Shown here: positions 38,176-39,638 of the stretch, piece after piece | How the letters are laid out: every line of letters begins with the position of its first letter | Position numbering within the stretch: the stretch's first letter is position 1 | Source: Nitrosopumilus sp. K4 | Lineage (GTDB): Archaea > Thermoproteota > Nitrososphaeria > Nitrososphaerales > Nitrosopumilaceae | Assembly: GCF_018128925.1 (NCBI RefSeq) | Contig: NZ_CP067007.1 | Location: 1,330,330-1,394,329 of the forward strand | Direction: 5' to 3' | Length of the DNA: 64,000 bases | Position numbers and translations under genes: made by a program | Notes under the pieces: model-generated | The model's database searches: none | What the model was told of the DNA's origin: nothing | Seen by the model: only the letters and a program-made list of their open reading frames with translations

Positions 38176-38218
38176 GGTTAGATAAAGCGTATATACGGCT
38201 CGTGTTCATTTCTGAATC

Positions 38219-38307
38219 AGCGGGGTGGGGAAGCCAGACTATTTAGGGCTAGGTCATCCCGGCGGGCTCATAACCCGCAGTTCAGTAGTTCAAATCTACT
38301 CCCCGCT
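38219..38307 (+). tRNA. Initiator tRNA-Met (CAT) with a 15-nt insertion in the D-loop
   Basis: Acceptor stem AGCGGGG pairs with CCCCGCT, with A1:U72. Anticodon stem GCGGG/CCCGC holds three G:C pairs around CTCATAA, which is the initiator signature. The T arm is AGTAG-TTCAAAT-CTACT. The whole is 89 nt, 15 more than the 74 expected. The extra bases fall in the D-loop (38236-38250, ends uncertain by 2 nt). Removing them leaves a normal D arm. An intron at an unusual site is the likely reading. Confidence 0.88.
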
Positions 38308-38309
38308 AT

Positions 38310-39638
38310 TTAATTTCTATAAATACAAAACCATGAATCAGATGGATTGAATTTTGAATTTTTGTTTTTTATTCCAATTCTCTGCTCAGGTCTAGTAAGA
38401 TGTCTGTGGGCAGAGATTTTTGGAGTGTAAAGTCTTTGTTGAATTTTTCTAGGCTTTTGAAGAATAGTTTTTTTTGAGGCTTTTGAACCACATTTGACAC
38501 ATTGAAATCCTTGCTTCTTTCCTTTGGATTTCATCTTTTTCTTACATTTTTTACATAGTGGATTTGTTTCCTCAGTGATTTTTTTCAGGTTAATGACTTG
38601 AATGAATTCTATATTTAGTGTTCGAGGGAATTTTTTTGTGGCTTTTTTAATTCCTCCACCTATGTTTATTTTATCACCAACAATAAGATTCTGTGCTACA
38701 AATGTGATTCCTGTAGGTTTGTAAACTGCACAATGTACCGTATAAGATTTTGAGGTGATTGAAAAAAGAACATGTCCTCCTTTGATAATTTTAGGAGTGG
38801 TGGAAACAGTTCCCAAAATAGTGCCAGAGGAATATGGTGTTAGATCTTCTACATTTAGTTTATTTGATAAATGATCACCAGTTCCCTGATTAGATTTAAA
38901 GATCATATAACCATCTAATTTTTCTTTAGGTTTCAAAATTTTTGATGCTTGTAGTAATGAAGAAAGGTTTTCTCCACGGATTCCATAAAAAACAGGGTCG
39001 GGTCCATGAGGCGTAATCAAAACTCTCTCTTTTTTTGAATCAAAATTGTTGTAGGTATATGGAAAAGTCTTGTTTTGCATCTCTTCTACGTTTTTAGATG
39101 AAAGTTTTCTTTCTTTTCCAAATCTAGATTTTTTACGGTAGCTTAGTAGCTCTAATGTGTGATCATCAAATTTGTATCCAATAGCACCAATTGCTCCAAC
39201 CAATCCTTGTCCATTTCCATGATAAAAAAATTCCAAGTTATTCTTCTTGGCAAATTTTTTTGCATAATTTCTATTAACAAGTTTCCATAATGCTAACCTG
39301 CTAAAATCAGTAAAATTTTGAGGTATGGAATCATTTTCATAAAACACCAGACCTGGATTTGCACCATTTTTAATATCAGAATATTTCAATACAAGATTTT
39401 TAATTTTGGTTTTAATTTTAGAGACATTTTTTGTTCGAATTTTTATTGAAACAGCCCCATTTCCTCGTGTTTTCCAAGGAATGTTTGGGTTAAATCGAAC
39501 TAGTTGTGGAAAATCTAAAAATTCTGAATTTTCCTTTTTTAGCTCATCAACAATTTTGTACGCAAGGAAAGTAGTACACATTCCCTGTGGGGAATCAGTA
39601 TCATCAAAACCAATGGTCAAAACTTGTTTTGAATCCAT
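38310..39638 (-). CDS. tiaS: tRNA-Ile2 agmatinylcytidine synthetase TiaS
   Basis: 442 residues. The opening GFDDTDSPQGMCTTFLA is diagnostic of TiaS, and a C-terminal zinc ribbon (CKKCKKKM then CVKC) is present. TiaS attaches agmatine to C34 of the Ile tRNA with anticodon CAU so that it reads AUA. It converges on the tRNA gene with a 2-bp gap and diverges from dph2. Confidence 0.93.
   Translation of the reverse strand: MDSKQVLTIGFDDTDSPQGMCTTFLAYKIVDELKKENSEFLDFPQLVRFNPNIPWKTRGNGAVSIKIRTKNVSKIKTKIKNLVLKYSDIKNGANPGLVFYENDSIPQNFTDFSRLALWKLVNRNYAKKFAKKNNLEFFYHGNGQGLVGAIGAIGYKFDDHTLELLSYRKKSRFGKERKLSSKNVEEMQNKTFPYTYNNFDSKKERVLITPHGPDPVFYGIRGENLSSLLQASKILKPKEKLDGYMIFKSNQGTGDHLSNKLNVEDLTPYSSGTILGTVSTTPKIIKGGHVLFSITSKSYTVHCAVYKPTGITFVAQNLIVGDKINIGGGIKKATKKFPRTLNIEFIQVINLKKITEETNPLCKKCKKKMKSKGKKQGFQCVKCGSKASKKTILQKPRKIQQRLYTPKISAHRHLTRPEQRIGIKNKNSKFNPSDSWFCIYRN

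Follow-up and report, generated by a model that had tools for sequence, protein, structure and literature searches.

The window analysed here is a 64,000-nt stretch (positions 1330330-1394329) of the Nitrosopumilus sp. K4 genome, which is a single contig of 1,645,909 bases that is 99.94% complete. On the plus strand the window carries a gene for initiator tRNA (tRNA-iMet) at 38219-38308, which runs from A1 to A73 over 90 nt, is 15 nt over the normal length, and reads AGCGGGGTGGGGAAGCCAG-ACTATTTAGGGCTAG-GTCATCCCGGCGGGCTCATAACCCGCAGTTCAGTAGTTCAAATCTACTCCCCGCTA. Its A1-U72 pair, together with the three G-C pairs at which the anticodon stem closes, marks it as an initiator. The gene and its surroundings are laid out as follows.

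38189-38195, plus strand: putative TATA-box-like element (TATATA), approximate, about 25-30 nt upstream of the tRNA and read from the sequence
38219-38237, plus strand: 5′ exon of tRNA-iMet, positions 1-18 (with 17a), from ARAGORN on the spliced sequence and the position map
38238-38252, plus strand: 15-nt intron ACTATTTAGGGCTAG at position 18/19, exactly missing in intronless orthologues, its last base varying
38253-38308, plus strand: 3′ exon, positions 19-73, with the anticodon CAU at 38269-38271, from ARAGORN and the position map
38310-39638, minus strand: TiaS, tRNA(Ile2) agmatidine synthetase, convergent neighbour used as a locus marker, with three TiaS domains in Pfam

TATATA is likewise found upstream of tRNA-iMet in relatives. 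The neighbouring protein matched all three Pfam TiaS domains, and its NCBIfam match was under the cut-off. We note that TiaS modifies tRNA-Ile2(CAU) and that its stop codon (38310) lies right beside the point where the iMet(CAU) gene ends, a neighbourhood that is kept in many relatives.

Neither ARAGORN nor an Rfam gathering search found a tRNA at 38219-38308 in the unedited window. ARAGORN reported none on the unspliced gene even with anticodon-loop introns permitted, and an RF00005 search of the whole genome saw the gene just as a 31-bit partial match. After removal of the middle 15 bases, ARAGORN returned a complete 75-base tRNA-Met(cat) with a standard cloverleaf. The initial annotation had read the gene as an initiator tRNA with a 15-nt intron in the D-loop, and both points are borne out by ARAGORN and, for the intron, by intronless orthologues; the mature length that it gave, 74 nt, becomes 75 once the discriminator base is included. 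The practical consequence is that the initiator tRNA of this genome is missed by ARAGORN.

No second iMet-like gene was found in the genome; a second tRNA-Met(cat) gene elsewhere has an anticodon-loop intron and is taken for the elongator. The idea that the gene is a decayed pseudogene or was misassembled has nothing in its favour except the odd length, and against it stand the status of this gene as the sole iMet-like one found in a genome of such completeness and the presence of the same insert in many independently sequenced genomes, which leaves an artefact or a dead gene with a vanishingly small chance.

ARAGORN also misses two other tRNA genes of this genome. One is tRNA-Arg(CCT) (L195, G000:C1:1600380-1600560, minus strand), whose D-loop appears to hold an insert of about 22 nt, for which a register search yielded no single clear junction. 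The other is tRNA-Glu(TTC) (L197, G000:C1:1224740-1224960, plus strand), with an apparent T-loop insert of about 15 nt. Two tRNA-like loci on the same contig, L196 (168820-169000, minus strand) and L205 (1151730-1151880, plus strand), are unreadable by ARAGORN unedited and possibly carry non-canonical introns.

The ends of the insert had been called ambiguous from the start, and this was correct for a single sequence, where an AG repeat permits three intron registers. The comparison of tRNA-iMet in relatives that was proposed with the annotation fixes the junction. We searched 250 genomes of the family and obtained a match in 118; going by record titles, the matching genomes are Nitrosopumilaceae and related ammonia-oxidizing archaea. 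Exactly the insert is missing in 53 of these 118, all of one genus code and most of them reading GGGGAAGYCAGGTCATCCC, and the remaining matching genomes have an insert of 14 to 17 bases. Intronless orthologues read GCCAGGTCATCCC, and 15 of the 35 intronless loci compared are identical to the spliced tRNA over all 75 nt. In standard numbering the insert lies between G18 and G19. G19 and the exon ends are constant, and the base preceding GTC is G, A or T by species (for example ...GGGCTAA/GTC and ...GGGCTAT/GTC). Because the last intron base is A or T in some relatives, the cut CCAG^ACT...^GTC is the only one that restores G18-G19 and gives the conserved tRNA everywhere, and the intron is therefore 38238-38252, 2 nt downstream of the 38236-38250 first assigned to it.

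Placed at this junction, the intron and the adjoining exon bases are predicted to form a bulge-helix-bulge motif made up of the following parts.

38232-38235, plus strand: 5′ strand of the central 4-bp helix, AGCC, which covaries with 38247-38250
38236-38238, plus strand: 5′ bulge AG^A, in which 38237 is the last base before the 5′ splice site; the 76 precursors read AG^A or AG^T
38239-38246, plus strand: intron hairpin CTA-TT-TAG, the second pair of which is T-A, A-T, C-G or G-C in relatives
38247-38250, plus strand: 3′ strand of the central helix, GGCT, showing covariation with 38232-38235
38251-38253, plus strand: 3′ bulge AG^G, in which 38252 is the last base before the 3′ splice site; the 76 precursors read AG^G, AA^G or AT^G

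The 76 distinct precursors have introns of 11-24 nt with a variable inner sequence and nearly constant exons, and share a general form in which exon AGYC pairs with intron GRCT next to a small intron hairpin. Across this set the central helix was 95% paired and the hairpin 91% paired, levels reached by 0 of 2000 column shuffles in each case, a significance that is inflated by the relatedness of the sequences. The third central pair is C-G (32 precursors), T-G (32) or T-A (12) and never C-A. Four central pairs form in 62 of the 76 and three in 14, and the outermost pair is A-A or A-C in 14. Sliding the register brought pairing of the central helix down to 3-47%; the drop for the hairpin was weaker (89% at +1, 84% at +2). 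When the window's own intron was shuffled, the 4-bp central helix arose in 1.1% of cases and the central helix together with a 3-bp hairpin in 0.08%. Because the motif is rare in shuffled introns and recurs in 76 distinct precursors, we conclude that it is not due to chance. Folded alone, the segment slightly favours an alternative structure (-8.4 vs -7.2 kcal/mol), and RNAalifold on the 76 precursors retained the D stem and three central pairs, and no more.

The 5′ bulge AG^A fits a 3-nt bulge that is cut after its second base. On the 3′ side there are two possible arrangements, a 3-nt bulge bounded by a 2-bp outer exon helix (A13-T20 and G12-C20a) or a 6-nt bulge bounded by the D stem. Some relatives lack the second pair of the outer helix; the 3′ side may therefore follow a relaxed motif, with the 6-nt bulge as the real one.

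A relaxed motif had also been proposed for the register 38236-38250, in which GACT at the 5′ end of the intron would pair with GGTC as the central helix. All four pairs of GACT/RGTC are possible in 48 of the 76 precursors and the helix is 90% paired across the set, yet 169 of 2000 column shuffles reach that level, as against none for the standard helices, and T-T and other mismatches are present. The pairing also joins the intron to the 3′ exon, the opposite of the strand order in the standard motif, where the 5′ exon (the anticodon, at 37/38) pairs with the intron (PMC4090602), and the register does not restore G18-G19 where the intron of a relative ends in A or T. On these grounds we rejected this helix, and the register that goes with it is very unlikely to be the one used.

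It is also conceivable that the mature tRNA retains the insert within an enlarged D-loop and that the 90-nt initiator tRNA is functional, a view with which the cloverleaf, intact apart from the D-loop, is in keeping. G18 and G19 bind positions 55 and 56, and these two invariant bases would be split. Retention also sits poorly with an insert that varies between 11 and 24 nt and changes in its inner sequence while the splice-site bulges and the exon pairing are kept, and with the existence in relatives of the identical tRNA without the insert. We therefore regard a retained insert as highly improbable. Our preferred reading, to which we give a probability of about 0.96, is that the initiator tRNA contains at the non-canonical position 18/19 an archaeal tRNA intron that is spliced by proteins.

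A search for a splicing endonuclease of relaxed specificity had been suggested as a check on the intron, and the genome does encode an enzyme of the two-subunit EndA type that is associated with such specificity. There are two EndA (PF01974) proteins. The catalytic one (181 aa) has its best matches among crenarchaeal-type chains (2cv8, E 5e-42; 3p1z chain B, E 6e-41) and, aligned to the Aeropyrum pernix chain 3p1z, keeps Tyr119, His127 and Lys158; the second subunit (220 aa) is without the catalytic histidine. Lys38 of the catalytic protein aligns with Lys44 of A. pernix 3p1z, which we take to lie in the crenarchaea-specific loop and to be the loop lysine. An RtcB ligase is also encoded (PF01139, E 3.4e-178). 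According to a review, a conserved lysine in the loop of crenarchaeal EndA is responsible for broad specificity (PMC6379350), and reviews place the two-subunit EndA in Thaumarchaeota and link it to non-canonical introns (including PMC4090602).

In the mechanism that we propose, the 90-nt precursor would form the bulge-helix-bulge in the D arm, with exon AGCC (positions 14-17) paired to intron GGCT, a short hairpin closing the intron, and the cut sites within the bulges AG^A and AG^G. We infer that both sites are cut by an EndA composed of the catalytic and the structural subunit, in an (alpha-beta)2 assembly, that RtcB ligates G18 to G19 to give the standard 75-nt tRNA-iMet, and that the tRNA would be inactive until it is spliced.

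The kind of element is already known, and this intron is a further case of the non-canonical archaeal tRNA introns described from Crenarchaeota and Thaumarchaeota. It resembles them in being short, in lying outside 37/38 in a genome with a two-subunit EndA, and in its predicted splicing at bulges beside a 4-bp helix. For Thaumarchaeota, 107 non-canonical introns were counted with tRNAscan-SE 2.0 (PMC8450103), and GtRNAdb may already list the very intron described here. Our literature search turned up no paper naming a thaumarchaeal iMet D-loop intron, and 18/19 is not among the example positions of a review (20/21, 22/23, 25/26 and others), a list that ends in 'etc.' (PMC4090602). Canonical archaeal introns at 37/38 share the motif and the enzyme, and the same gene has an anticodon-loop intron in many relatives; unlike those, the intron described here is at 18/19 and not one base 3′ of the anticodon, and the gene in the window is without an anticodon-loop intron. 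An initiator gene that is disrupted and dependent on splicing is also known from the permuted tRNA-iMet of Thermofilum pendens, although in that gene the two halves stand in swapped order and meet at 59/60, whereas here the insert is a plain intron (PMC3978253).

The initial annotation called D-loop introns rare, which may be true of archaea at large, but this D-loop intron is common among ammonia-oxidizing archaea. Intronless loci are mainly from Nitrosopumilus, with others from a second genus of the family and from Nitrososphaerales. The locus is syntenic, in that flanking DNA matches on at least one side in most loci, with or without the intron. When the presence or absence of the intron was mapped onto a FastTree phylogeny of 128 TiaS proteins, 7 changes were required vs 24 for shuffled labels, and at least 4 of the 7 are forced by well-supported branches; such counts do not distinguish gains from losses, and the tree contains some long branches. 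Because the same junction occurs in Nitrosopumilaceae, Nitrosotalea and Nitrososphaeraceae, the intron is probably ancestral and was lost several times, with parallel insertion at the same site as a possible alternative history. Non-canonical tRNA introns have been read in a review as likely recent additions (PMC4033280).

One further locus (L095), on a contig titled Woeseiaceae bacterium (OFTM48), holds an intact iMet locus. The locus is of Nitrosopumilus type and its TiaS groups with Nitrosopumilus on the tree, so the MAG appears to be contaminated.

In relatives the gene carries other introns as well. A second one, in the anticodon loop, is present in about 62 of 145 loci that have the D-loop intron, and some relatives have a further intron in the T arm. 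Several loci (L045, L058, L063, L108, L153 and others) show three apparent introns in one iMet gene, in the D-loop at 18/19, the anticodon loop and the T-loop, and Nitrososphaeraceae-type genes (L071, L086, L112, L119) combine the D-loop intron with a T-stem insert of about 24-30 nt.

With a shared junction, clean absence in several lineages and up to two more introns in the same gene, this initiator tRNA is a well-sampled case for tRNA intron gain and loss. A more speculative proposal, which we consider improbable, is that selection has maintained the intron ever since the order's ancestor, the unspliced D-loop keeping the initiator inactive or directing its modification until EndA acts, such that splicing would gate translation initiation. 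If this were true, the repeated loss of the intron would mark lineages that dropped such control.
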